The position numbers and the translations under genes were made by a program. Shown one piece after another: positions 24,786 to 31,341 of a stretch of DNA of 37,856 bases. The DNA is from a virus, in the IMG/VR virus record IMGVR_UViG_3300049734_000195, positions 1 through 37,856 of that record; one strand, given 5' to 3'. Numbering within the stretch: position 1 is the first letter of the stretch; the number at the start of each line of letters is the position of its first letter. A model generated the notes under the pieces. That model made no database searches and was not told where the DNA came from. It saw only the letters and a program-made list of their open reading frames with translations.

Positions 24786-25030
24786 GCCGAGGCCTCCCGT
24801 GCCATCGCCTCGCGCTCGAGGTCGTAGGCCGACAGCCACTCCAGCCTGGCCTGCACGTCTCCGACCCTCGGTCGCACAGGGCCGGGTAGCGGCCGCTGGT
24901 AGGGACAGACGGACTCCGGCAACCCTGCCCGTGCTGCGTCGCGTGCAGCTCGCCACACTAGCTCCCAGGTGGCCTCGTAGGCACGGCGTGCCGCGCGATG
25001 CATCTCGCGCTCCCGATCGGCGCGCCTCAC
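24782..25030 (-). CDS. Small basic helical protein next to the initiator
   Basis: 82 residues, not recognised. Arg/Glu/Ala-rich, with a likely long helix (AREREMHRAARRAYEATWEL-type text in its first 25 residues) and a proline-rich middle. It directly follows the replication initiator with a GTGA overlap, so it could be a helicase-loader-like or initiator partner, by position only. No motif supports a specific enzyme. Confidence 0.5.
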   Translation of the reverse strand: MRRADREREMHRAARRAYEATWELVWRAARDAARAGLPESVCPYQRPLPGPVRPRVGDVQARLEWLSAYDLEREAMAREASA

Positions 25031-25863
25031 GGCTCAGCCTCGTCGGCGAGCCGGTCGATGACCTTCGCGCTGACGCCACTGTCGCGTAGAGCCTTGACGC
25101 CGGCACGGAAGGCTTCCCGCTTCCGCGCGATGGCTGGGTCGAGCGTGGGGTTGCCGTTCGTGCCGTCATGAGATTGGGTTACAGGCGCGGTCGAGTTACG
25201 CTCGTGGTCGGTCGGAGGCGAGGCGGTGACCGTCTCCGCGCCGCTGATCGGAGTAGCACGGCTGTTATATTTAGCTGTACGTACAACCCCTACCCTACCC
25301 TCTTCTACCCTATGGCGCGCGATCGGATCGCGATCGGATCGCGAATCATTCGCGAGCGGCTCGCGAATTGCCTTGGATGCGGCTCCAGGTGCAGACTCTC
25401 GCTCCTGGCCTTCTTTCGGTATGTTGTCATCGCAATGACTTTCTGTAAGTGAAGAACATTCTCCACTTACGGGTTTTCGCGATTGATTCGCGAATGACTC
25501 GCGAATGACTCGCGAGGATAAATAGTTTTCTTTCTTAGGAATTGGGATAGAGCTTTGAGAAGGATGGTCTACTTTCTGGTAAGTGCGCCACGTCGGAAGC
25601 TCGTAATAGACCCTTCCGTCGATCTGGAAGAGCCGGACCATGCCAGCGGCCGCAAGGGCGTCCCGATCGTCCTGAATATCGGACGCTCGGTATTCGTCGG
25701 CGGGAAACACCTGTGCGCGGAGGGTGGATGGCTCGGCGCGCCCGCGGCCGTAGTCATCGGACAGGGAAATCAGGCCGATGAAGAGCATGCGCTGGCGTAG
25801 GGAGCGCTCGGTGAAATCGTGGGAAGTCCAGATTCCGGGGTCGATCTGTCTCTTGCGGGGCAT
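25027..25863 (-). CDS. Replication initiator (phage O-like, wHTH N-terminus)
   Basis: 278 residues. The N-terminal ~105 residues (RQIDPGIWTSHDFTERSLRQ, then LFIGLISLSDDYGRGRAEPS, and GRVYYELPTWRTYQKVDHPS) are the pattern of phage replication-organiser/initiator winged-helix domains. After that, up to about residue 250, the sequence is low-complexity and hydrophilic, and its coding DNA holds the iterons, dyad and G4-type motif of the proposed origin. A helical C-terminal region (AFRAGVKALRDSGVSAKVID) may recruit helicase loading. The ATG at 25863 has AGAGAG four bases upstream; the in-frame ATG at 25956 lies inside the upstream gene. It probably binds its own gene, as lambda O does. Confidence 0.7.
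   Translation of the reverse strand: MPRKRQIDPGIWTSHDFTERSLRQRMLFIGLISLSDDYGRGRAEPSTLRAQVFPADEYRASDIQDDRDALAAAGMVRLFQIDGRVYYELPTWRTYQKVDHPSQSSIPIPKKENYLSSRVIRESFANQSRKPVSGECSSLTESHCDDNIPKEGQERESAPGAASKAIREPLANDSRSDRDPIARHRVEEGRVGVVRTAKYNSRATPISGAETVTASPPTDHERNSTAPVTQSHDGTNGNPTLDPAIARKREAFRAGVKALRDSGVSAKVIDRLADEAEP
25287..25310 (-). other. G-quadruplex-type motif next to iteron block A
   Basis: On the minus strand four G-runs of at least three follow each other with loops of 7, 2 and 2 bases (loops TAGAAGA, TA, TA; the final run is GGGG), which fits the common G3+N1-7 definition. The plus strand reads as CCCC-TA-CCC-TA-CCC-TCTTCTA-CCC. It lies within the initiator coding strand, so it would also be in its mRNA. 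Confidence 0.6.
25328..25366. repeat. Iteron block A: four TCGCGA at 11-base spacing
   Basis: TCGCGA occurs at 25328-25333, 25339-25344, 25350-25355 and 25361-25366. Each start is exactly 11 bases after the last. The five bases between copies vary, so the hexamer is what is kept. Since 11 is not divisible by three, each copy falls in a different codon phase, and the encoded residues do not repeat. Confidence 0.85.
25445..25470. repeat. 26-base dyad between the iteron blocks
   Basis: GTAAGTG (25445-25451) is the reverse complement of CACTTAC (25464-25470). The inner AGAA/TTCT arms (25453-25456 and 25459-25462) extend the symmetry, with one mismatched pair at 25452/25463 and two central bases. 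It is a near-perfect palindrome centred between 25457 and 25458. Confidence 0.7.
25477..25515. repeat. Iteron block B: four TCGCGA at 11-base spacing
   Basis: TCGCGA occurs at 25477-25482, 25488-25493, 25499-25504 and 25510-25515, again with starts exactly 11 bases apart. The second and third copies share the full 11-mer TCGCGAATGAC. The block lies directly beside the AT-rich run, as initiator-binding sites beside an unwinding element do. Confidence 0.85.
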
Positions 25864-26153: not shown

Positions 26154-26633
26154 TCAGGCGGCGCCCTTCTGGTCGGCGTCCTTCGGGAAGAGCTTCAGCT
26201 GCCGCGTCACCTTGACGAACTCCTTGAGGTCCGGATGCCAGAGTCCGCGGCGCTCGACTACGTCTCGGAACTCCTCGATGTCATGACCGCGCAACACGGG
26301 GCGCTCGTCTCCGGTCTTGGCGTCCTTCCTGACCGTGCAGTGTGCGAGCTCGTGGTCAAGGAGCGCCTCCTGCTGCTCGACCGTCAGCTTTTGGTAGCTC
26401 TCCTCCTCGATCTCGATGACGAAGTCCGGGTCCGAATCGAACGCTGTCCGACACAGGAACTTCGTCAGCGCGTTCGCCTTCTTGGCGGTGCCGAGCCGAG
26501 TCTTGCCATGCCGCTTCGTGGGCTCATCCCGGAACAGGAACAGGACCTCGCAGTCCTTGATGTCGCTGTGGCAGGCGGCCCGGACCCGCTCGCCCAGATC
26601 GGTCAGGGCGTCATCTGTGCGAAAGATCATCAC
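26154..26633 (-). CDS. Putative phage metallopeptidase
   Basis: 159 residues with a zinc-peptidase HELAH motif (His94, Glu95, His98), preceded by TVEQQEALLD, and a later HDIEEFRDVVERRGLW with a possible third ligand. FVIEIEEESYQKL at about 71-83 is a usual strand. It matches the pattern of the putative phage metallopeptidase family (PF18894), small cytosolic zinc proteins of unknown substrate found in early phage operons. GGAGG lies five bases before the ATG at 26633, and a second in-frame ATG follows immediately. Confidence 0.72.
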   Translation of the reverse strand: MMIFRTDDALTDLGERVRAACHSDIKDCEVLFLFRDEPTKRHGKTRLGTAKKANALTKFLCRTAFDSDPDFVIEIEEESYQKLTVEQQEALLDHELAHCTVRKDAKTGDERPVLRGHDIEEFRDVVERRGLWHPDLKEFVKVTRQLKLFPKDADQKGAA

Positions 26634-29055: not shown

Positions 29056-29093
29056 GCGCGCGCTCCCTTCTTGGCCGTCGAGTACTCGCTCAT
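29052..29093 (-). CDS. 13-residue coupling ORF
   Basis: ATG at 29093 overlaps the ATPase stop as ATGA, and its TGA at 29052-29054 overlaps the next gene's GTG as GTGA. The predicted peptide is MSEYSTAKKGARA. Exact overlaps at both ends suggest that the ribosome passes through it to reach the next gene. It may be a real microprotein or only a relay. Not supported by any homology. Confidence 0.35.
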   Translation of the reverse strand: MSEYSTAKKGARA

Positions 29094-30997
29094 GCCGCCT
29101 CCCTCCCCGCGCCGGCGATGCCAGGCGCCTCCACGCGCGACGCTCCCCCCTCGCGCGAGACGTAGAAGTAGCGCGGACCTGGGACGGCGTTGCGCTCCCG
29201 GGCCATCGCCTGAAACTCCTCGACGGTCTTGCCGAGGATGGTGGACAGCACCAGCACCTGGTGCCCGCAGTCGGAAAGCACGCTGAGCGCCGCGGCGCGG
29301 CTCCCCGGATCCAGCCGGTCGAAGTCGTCGACGACGATGAGCCCGAAGCCCGAGGCGGACGCCACCGCGACCTGGAAGGCCAGGCCGAAGCGGATCTGCT
29401 CGCTGGAGCTCAGCAGCCTGGTCGGTAGGCCGTTGACGATCGCGTCGTCCTCGAGGGCGAGCAGCGGCGCGAAGTCCGCCTGGTAGCCCATCGGCCGGAG
29501 CTGCTCGTTCACGACGGACTGGAAGAGCTGCACGCCCCCGCCGCCGGCGAGGTCCTTGCGGATGCCGTCGGGGCCGAGCAGCTCGCACAGGCGGTCCAGG
29601 TCGTCGCGCTCGGCGTCGAGCCGGTCCCGGGCGTGCTCGTATTTCGCGTGCTGCTCGGCGGCCGCCAGGTACGACGAGAGCAGCTCGAGCCGGCGGCGCC
29701 CCTCGGCGATCCGCTCCGCGAGGGCCGCGGGGTCGGCGACGGCCGCGGGCTGCGGCTCGGCGGGGCGCATCTCGCGCTCACGCTCCAGCTCGGTGATCGC
29801 CGCCTCGATCGTGGCGGCCGCCGCCTCCCCCTCCTCGAGCGCCACGAGCTGGCGCTTCAGGGCCTCGACGTCGGGGGTCGCCTGCAGGATCGACTTCGCT
29901 TCCGCAAGCTGGTTGCGCGCCGCCGCGGCCTCGGCCTCCGCCGCCTTCAGCCGGTCCCGGGCGGACTCGATCGCCTTCTTGCGGCTGGCCGCGGTCGCCT
30001 TGGCGCCACAGGTGGGACACGTCTCGGGCGCCGCCTCGGCCGCGGTTACGTCCTCCCCCGCCCGCGCGAGCAGCGCTTCCGCCTTCGCCTGGCGCTGGAC
30101 GGCGTCCCGGTGGGCGGTCGCGGCGGACGTCTTTCCTTCTTCCGCCGCGGTGATCTGGTGCGAGAGCGACAGCGCCCGCATCTTCACGTCACCCTGCGGG
30201 GGTAGCTGCTTGCGCTTCTCGCGCCACTTCGCCAGGTCCCGGTCGATCCGCTTGAGTCGCTCACGCTCCCGGCGCGGGGCGGCCTCCGCCTCAGCCTGGG
30301 CGCGGATGGCCTGCTCGCGCTCCCCCTCGAGCGCCTCGAGCTTCCGGGTGATCGTCCGGCGGTGGCTTTCGAGGGTCGGACCGTCCATGCCCGCCATGCC
30401 ATCCGGGGCGACGGGCGGCTCGGGCTCGCCGAGCGCCTTGAGCGCGCGCCCGTTCGCCGTCCGGGCCTCGTAGACCCGGCGGTAGAGCGCGTCGATCTCG
30501 CTCAGCGTCGCGATGACGTTGGTGTGCTCCTGGGGGATCGCGCCAGCGATCAACTCCACCACCTCGGAGGGGAGTTCGATTGCCGCCGGCTTCGTCAGGT
30601 CCAGCACCAGCCGCTGCGCCGCCTTGCGATCGAGCCGCAGCAGCTCGCCCGAGTAGAGGCAGGCGCGGATGACGGAGCCGGGAACGTGCAGGTGCGCCTC
30701 GATCCGGTCCTGGACCGCGGCGCGCGGGCCCTCCCCCTCCTGGCGGGTGAACAGCTCATCACCCGCGTGGATCTGGACCTCCCACTTCTTGCGGTCGCCG
30801 TAGCGGCGGAGGTCCTCGAGGGAGCGGCCGGACTCGGCCCCCCTCGCGGTCCCCGTGAGGCCCACGGAGATCGCGTCGAGGAGCGTGGACTTCCCCGCGG
30901 CGTTGAGCCCTCCGACGATGTTGAGCCCAGGCGCGAGGTCGAGGTCGGCGGCCTGGTAGCTGCGAAAATTCCGGAGAGCGAGCCGGGTGATCTGCAT
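29090..30997 (-). CDS. Rad50/SbcC-like recombination ATPase with zinc hook
   Basis: 635 residues. Head: Walker A GGLNAAGKST (29-38); late ABC signature LLSSSEQIRFG (from about 528) and Walker B LIVVDD (about 553-558). Between them, long charged coiled coils (about 200-480) carry a single CPTC at 327-330, the zinc hook that dimerises Rad50/SbcC. It is shorter than cellular SbcC, a common phage feature. SbcC works with the SbcD nuclease, and no SbcD-like gene is visible here; the PD-(D/E)XK gene two genes upstream could be a partner. I chose ATG at 30997 (GGAGAGG about ten bases upstream) over 31015. Confidence 0.8.
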   Translation of the reverse strand: MQITRLALRNFRSYQAADLDLAPGLNIVGGLNAAGKSTLLDAISVGLTGTARGAESGRSLEDLRRYGDRKKWEVQIHAGDELFTRQEGEGPRAAVQDRIEAHLHVPGSVIRACLYSGELLRLDRKAAQRLVLDLTKPAAIELPSEVVELIAGAIPQEHTNVIATLSEIDALYRRVYEARTANGRALKALGEPEPPVAPDGMAGMDGPTLESHRRTITRKLEALEGEREQAIRAQAEAEAAPRRERERLKRIDRDLAKWREKRKQLPPQGDVKMRALSLSHQITAAEEGKTSAATAHRDAVQRQAKAEALLARAGEDVTAAEAAPETCPTCGAKATAASRKKAIESARDRLKAAEAEAAAARNQLAEAKSILQATPDVEALKRQLVALEEGEAAAATIEAAITELEREREMRPAEPQPAAVADPAALAERIAEGRRRLELLSSYLAAAEQHAKYEHARDRLDAERDDLDRLCELLGPDGIRKDLAGGGGVQLFQSVVNEQLRPMGYQADFAPLLALEDDAIVNGLPTRLLSSSEQIRFGLAFQVAVASASGFGLIVVDDFDRLDPGSRAAALSVLSDCGHQVLVLSTILGKTVEEFQAMARERNAVPGPRYFYVSREGGASRVEAPGIAGAGREAA

Positions 30998-30999
30998 CG

Positions 31000-31341
31000 T
31001 CACGGCCCTCTCCATTCGAGGCGGGAGACCGACAACGCGGCCGCCGCTCGCTCGAGCAGCTCGACTGCATCGCGGATGTTGCCGCGCACGACGACATACG
31101 CGCTGGCCCCTGAGACGTTCGGCTCACCGAGGGAGACGCGGAGGCAGTCGGGATCGTCTGGCAGCTTCCTCACGAGGAAGGTGCCGACGATCTCCTCCTC
31201 CGCGTTCTCGCCCGGCTTCCCGGTGGTGATCGTGTTGGTCCCAGCCGCTGACATCGCGGCCGCCTGCTCCGTCAGGCGCCGGATGACACCGTCGTCCGTT
31301 GCCTCGGTTTCGTGATCTCGGTTCCTGTGGGTGTCAGCCAT
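31000..31341 (-). CDS. Small protein of the recombination block
   Basis: 113 residues, unrecognised. The N-terminal half is charged and probably disordered. Residues about 50-112 look folded (GTFLVRKLPDDPDCLRVSLG, then SAYVVVRGNIRDAVELLERA). It lies between the annealing-protein candidate and the Rad50-like ATPase and ends at the TGA just before the ATPase ATG, so it is co-translated with them. GGAG precedes the ATG. A small recombination accessory or single-strand DNA cofactor is possible by place only. Confidence 0.5.
   Translation of the reverse strand: MADTHRNRDHETEATDDGVIRRLTEQAAAMSAAGTNTITTGKPGENAEEEIVGTFLVRKLPDDPDCLRVSLGEPNVSGASAYVVVRGNIRDAVELLERAAAALSVSRLEWRGP

Follow-up and report, generated by a model that had tools for sequence, protein, structure and literature searches.

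We consider it very likely that the virus DNA analysed here carries a phage replication origin embedded in the gene of its own initiator, in which the winged-helix domain of the protein would bind palindromes of the form TC-N2/3-GA, the blocks of these iterons would loop and an adjoining tandem element would open. The window, by which we mean the whole stretch of DNA analysed, is an IMG/VR virus record of 37,856 nt. The location of the iterons, their phasing, selection at DNA level, conservation across a family whose median identity is about 33%, and covariation between a residue of the initiator and a base of the iteron were all observed. The initial annotation had proposed a lambda-type origin within the initiator gene, its palindromic iterons all facing the same side of the helix, and this is supported as the best reading. 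The refuting conditions that it had set for the sequence pattern did not apply, the phasing being confined to the gene and retained by relatives.

The initiator gene lies on the minus strand (25027-25863, ATG at 25863) and encodes a protein of 278 aa with an N-terminal DNA-binding domain, a linker and a short C-terminal part. The protein matched phrog_2149 (E 7.9e-27) and phrog_1408 (E 1.4e-21) through its N-terminal domain, and both families were matched by 41 of 41 aligned family members. The N-terminal domain is predicted to be a winged helix: the AlphaFold model of residues 1-127 (mean pLDDT 93) has the helix and strand order of this fold and contains one such domain. The window initiator had no match above cut-off in Pfam and nothing useful in NCBIfam; a PDB sequence search found no relative, and a PDB fold search returned general winged-helix proteins and regulators alone, all at E > 0.01 and none at E <= 0.001. 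No lambda O-type family was among the Pfam, PHROG and NCBIfam matches, and profile searches gave no link to lambda O. The C-terminal part of the window initiator matched no helicase-loading domain, nor anything else, and neither a helicase nor a loader was recognised among ten neighbouring proteins scanned in the window. Some of these neighbours matched nothing; the others are a phage metallopeptidase, an AAA/SMC-like protein, HTH proteins and one protein that matched HNH weakly. The putative metallopeptidase is encoded at 26157-26633 (PF18894, E 4.7e-25), and the AAA/SMC-like ATPase (29093-31015, 641 aa; Pfam AAA_23 and SMC_N) belongs to the same gene cluster. The window had no match in Rfam, no clean switch in GC skew and no DnaA box on either strand.

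As the initial annotation had described, and as we confirmed, the gene contains eight copies of TCGCGA in two blocks of four with exact 11-bp steps. In gene order, block 1 (25477-25515, minus strand; block B of that annotation) comprises the copies starting at 25477, 25488, 25499 and 25510 and lies just past the part coding for the DNA-binding domain, while block 2 (25328-25366, minus strand; its block A) comprises those starting at 25328, 25339, 25350 and 25361. Measured from last copy to first copy, the blocks are 116 bp apart in the window and usually 150-215 bp apart in relatives. One step further out, a degenerate ninth site, TCGCGC (25317-25322, minus strand; GCGCGA on the plus strand), stands in phase; a degenerate TCGCGB one or two turns past the last perfect copy was present in 53 of 173 relatives, and for each of five sets of control offsets the count was 0-2. 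In number, the hexamer is no denser than chance. About a dozen copies had been expected in the window, which was an underestimate: dinucleotide shuffles gave 34 ± 6, and 25 were found, so that the phasing alone is unusual. No phased TCGCGA triple occurs elsewhere in the window, and a near-identical contig carries the same array.

A blind scan of IMG/VR for three TCGCGA copies at 11-bp steps, in which no protein was used, returned at least 119 contigs, and homologous ORFs around the arrays were called with a profile grown from the DNA-binding domain of the window initiator. Among the matches listed, the array lay inside a homologous initiator ORF in 106 of 119 contigs. At 10-bp steps (at least 120 contigs) it lay inside the initiator family in 106 of 120 contigs, again among the matches listed; neither sample is necessarily random. 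Steps of 12 bp gave 32 contigs in total, and of the 31 that were new, 2 had the array inside the initiator family. Since 10 bp is as good as 11 bp and 12 bp is not, the rule is one helical turn, and the helical-turn spacing proposed initially holds, whereas 11 bp as the essential step was rejected. The DNA-binding domains of the family are diverse, with 33% as the median of their pairwise identities and 39 clusters at 60% identity.

For a sample selected by protein similarity only, we used an eight-member alignment and obtained 80 loci in bacterial genomes; a genome scan with the single window protein as query had returned nothing. The hosts are mostly Actinomycetota, together with Pseudomonadota, Planctomycetota, Verrucomicrobiota and Gemmatimonadota. 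TCGCGA pairs in the genes of these loci were separated by 10 bp in 64 cases, by 11 bp in 81 and by 12 bp in one, amounting to 145 pairs at 10 or 11 bp, where other short distances had about 1; harmonics appeared at 20-22 and 30-33 bp. Outside the genes, 547 kb of DNA contained two 11-bp pairs, and in the complete genomes of five phages (Butters, Fishburne, Bernal13, MooMoo and Sproutie) phased pairs were found solely inside the initiator gene. When the 80 loci were combined with eight named phages, phased TCGCGA was present in 44 of 88 genes. Under the rule applied here, fewer than three phased sites were found in 18 of 68 unique protein-selected genes, about a quarter. This counts against the origin reading, as do the lack of a clean GC-skew switch in the window, the absence of a recognised loading domain in its initiator or of a helicase or loader among the ten scanned neighbours, and its comparatively weak tandem element. 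In most relatives that have two blocks, the stretch encoding the folded domain contains block 1 (nt 165-213), and block 2 (nt 345-430) follows closely; the window differs from them in having both blocks in the linker part.

Genes without TCGCGA showed an 11-bp autocorrelation at the same two places, and their iterons were TCACTGA, TCGACGA, TCCGGA, TCAAGA and similar sequences, from which we derived the general form TC-N2/3-GA. At least four such sites at 10- or 11-bp spacing were found in 188 of 238 genes, most of which had been collected by the TCGCGA pattern, as compared with 0 to 7 genes at five control spacings. The third base of the iteron half-site covaries with one residue of the initiator, D99 in the window (codon 25567-25569, minus strand), which lies in the motif QKVDHP after the wing. 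No other alignment column came close to this one in the significance of what it tells about iteron type (z 16). Of 195 TCG-type arrays, 190 go with Asp at this position and 3 with Glu; all 11 TCA-type arrays go with Asn, and TCC-type arrays with Thr, Ser or Asn. Under a relaxed rule requiring at least two phased sites, residue class and half-site base agreed in 219 of 221 genes (198 with G and an acidic residue, 21 with neither), the two exceptions being a very divergent and probably misaligned row (L067) and a gene whose two sites are weak (L345). On a tree from which the D99 column had been omitted, we counted 9 changes of base class and 9 of residue class, of which 8 fell on shared branches out of 440. 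This covariation leads us to infer that the iterons are very probably read by the initiator's own DNA-binding domain; the evidence is strong, albeit indirect, and comes from sequence comparison without binding data. That the Asp contacts the C of CGA is likewise an inference. Five members from Pseudomonadota (L331, L336, L339, L349 and L354) have TCGACGA-like iterons and 5-bp tandem units, GGAAT or GGAAG, after block 2.

The phased repeats within the genes of this family are maintained at DNA level. When synonymous codons were shuffled with each protein kept, 5.15 phased pairs were expected in 238 non-redundant genes and 632 were observed; the corresponding values for the protein-selected genes were 0.86 and 82. 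For the window, 6 pairs were observed, with a shuffle mean of 0.08 and a maximum of 4 in 20,000, which excludes a peptide repeat as the cause. A constraint on the DNA had originally been argued from the fact that 11 is not a multiple of three. The shuffles uphold the constraint but the argument fails, because 33 bp equal 11 aa and both window blocks encode similar peptides, IRE(S/P)(F/L)AN(Q/D)SR, so that the 11-bp step alone cannot exclude a peptide repeat. These similar peptides, in the linker part of the protein, are what would favour the view that the array merely results from codon usage or from a linker peptide that is repetitive or low in complexity. The loss of the pattern in synonymous shuffles refutes this explanation, and the iterons use the three codon phases about equally (308/337/322), most relatives have block 1 within the coding part of the conserved folded domain, and a sister clade, described below, has its array in non-coding DNA; we regard it as practically ruled out. 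The folded protein domain and the one-turn DNA array are written in the same bases, which makes this a clear example of overlapping constraint.

The initiator could also use the array as an operator to repress or roadblock transcription of its own gene, with the true origin elsewhere. A predicted winged-helix DNA binder with sites in its own gene would suit such a role, and autoregulation would yield the same covariation between residue and base. However, sites in the middle of the gene, their arrangement in two blocks and the adjoining tandem element fit an origin better, and the confinement of phased pairs to the initiator gene in the five complete phage genomes checked leaves no other such array for the initiator. 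Moreover, lambda O and SPP1 gp38 are known to bind origins within genes (PMC7466680, PMC6316719). We consider an operator with the origin elsewhere unlikely, although operator and origin roles may both be present. Even less probable, in our view, is that the array is bound by some other protein, for instance a partition protein, a factor of the host or part of the packaging machinery. Short palindromic arrays can serve as centromere or packaging sites, but this is general knowledge that none of our results supports, and the array tracks the initiator gene family across host phyla, its iteron base covaries with a residue in the initiator's own DNA-binding domain, and the window lacks a DnaA box on both strands.

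For the replication origin, which we prefer, the neighbourhood of the iterons needed revision. The initial annotation had singled out an AT-rich run beside block 1. This run is present (25518-25543, 80% AT, the highest in the gene) but is not a feature of the family, whose average profile has only weak AT rises, and it was rejected as a general opening element. What is conserved is a purine-rich tandem array directly after block 2, which most relatives possess, with units of 5-8 bp that vary by clade (GGGGAACA, GATCAAG, GACCTAG, GATCTG, GGAAG and others). At +8 to +16 past the last iteron, 42-47% of genes gave a strong tandem signal, and at most other offsets 0-1% did, the exceptions being the iterons themselves and scored segments overlapping the element; purine content at the element reaches 0.74 as compared with about 0.52 elsewhere. 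In the window, the element (25287-25311, minus strand) follows the ninth site, has a period of 5 (AGGGT AGAAG AGGGT AGGGT AGGGG) and adjoins an AT-rich stretch (25262-25287, 68% AT). It is weaker than that of most relatives and, since 37 of 5000 synonymous shuffles reached its period-5 score, suggestive only. By analogy with RK2, in which the opening element contains tandem 13-mers beside the iterons (PMC4980987), the tandem element is likely to be an opening or helicase-loading site, the opening itself being inferred.

We propose that the N-terminal winged-helix domain binds the short TC-N2/3-GA palindromes (TCGCGA in the window), probably as one dimer per palindrome, and that, because the sites are one helical turn apart (10 or 11 bp), the bound proteins would be aligned on one face of the DNA and bind cooperatively. 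The two blocks would then wrap or loop the DNA, straining the adjoining purine-rich tandem element and its AT-rich flank until they open, and the opened DNA would receive the host helicase, either directly via the C-terminal part of the initiator or via a loader. It is inference that the protein binds as a dimer, that the DNA loops, that strands open at the tandem element, that the helicase is loaded and that replication starts at this site, and we found no binding, footprint or replication-mapping data for this initiator family in the open-licence literature. For some family members a link with helicase loading can be made: the one in Enterobacter phage Tyrion (L362, 2995-3762) has a DnaT domain as its C-terminal part (PF17948, E 9e-17), and in Pseudomonas phage PAShipCat1 a gene for a DnaC-like loader lies next to the initiator gene. 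A phased TC-N2/3-GA array was not found in the Tyrion gene, which has a GGATCAG tandem element only. With somewhat less confidence than we place in the origin itself, we think it probable that the members of one very widespread phage initiator family, whose hosts range from Actinomycetota to Pseudomonadota, Planctomycetota, Verrucomicrobiota and Gemmatimonadota, recognise TC-N2/3-GA palindromes set one turn apart within their own coding sequences, that a one-residue code (Asp or Glu for TCG; Asn, Ser or Thr for TCA or TCC) sets origin specificity, and that a rapidly changing purine-rich microsatellite, often with a non-triplet unit, is the opening or helicase-loading element.

Iteron origins within genes are already known from lambda O and SPP1 oriL. 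In lambda, the iterons lie in the middle of gene O beside a strand-opening region and are bound by the O product (PMC7466680), and oriL inside SPP1 gene 38 has direct repeats in the initiator gene, an AT-rich opening element and a dedicated initiator (PMC6316719). The family described here resembles lambda in having iterons in the middle of the initiator gene, and oriL in having direct repeats there. Lambda-type origins have a single block of 4-6 longer iterons, of 18 bp, and an AT-rich tract, whereas this family has palindromes of 6-7 bp at one-turn spacing, usually in two blocks, and a purine-rich short tandem element; SPP1 differs in its second origin, oriR, its own loader and helicase (gp39 and gp40) and in its repeats and initiator. 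In the plasmid origins RK2 oriV and P1 oriR, cooperativity between iterons depends on the helical turn; for plasmid iterons, half-turn separation is known to abolish it (PMC4980987). These origins also place repeated initiator sites beside tandem repeats in the opening element, but they differ in their iterons of 17-22 bp, in Rep proteins with two winged-helix domains and in the common presence of DnaA boxes; with one domain in the model of residues 1-127 and no DnaA box, the window does not fit this description. RK2/P1-type iterons are not known to lie inside the rep gene. In the origins of SaPIs in Staphylococcus, an opening region is surrounded by two groups of short iterons, but their initiator is a helicase and their location is different. 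The RepA origins of mycobacteriophages were considered and set aside; they involve a different repA, of cluster A phages, and repeats were not found by the authors (PMC7157519). Repeats within an O-like gene have been noted without details for Pseudomonas phage MD8 (PMC8508860).

We did not find this origin, whose layout recurs in hundreds of distantly related phages, described in the open-licence literature, subscription papers being outside our search, and the combination of very short palindromes, one-turn spacing, usually two blocks, a tandem element and a one-residue specificity code in hosts of at least five phyla appears to be new. The origins of most temperate phages are unmapped, including many in actinobacteriophage collections. 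If our reading is true, the origin of hundreds of phages could be read from sequence, one residue and three bases could serve to predict whether the origins of different phages are compatible, and studies of how an opening complex is built through helical phasing would have a compact initiator-origin pair to work with.

Several relatives depart from the common layout. In the sister clade (L126, L130, L138, L141 and L150), the ORF is little more than the DNA-binding domain. Upstream of the gene, in non-coding DNA, 3-4 copies of TTCGCGAA at 12-bp steps form a TCGCGA array, after which come GC-alternating repeats and repeats resembling GATCTAAGATT; this clade may represent a minimal initiator and origin. 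A distant relative in Moorella phage MCACPph1 (L363, 3001-4026) lacks such iterons and has in its gene a pyrimidine-rich 6-bp tandem (CCTTCT), with a strand bias opposite to that of the others. Finally, the same initiator with iteron blocks and a GGGGAACA element is present at 1498-2121 of Rhodococcus sp. DMF-1 plasmid plas-2 (L368), a 68-kb record listed as a plasmid, which is either a phage-plasmid or a plasmid using this origin.
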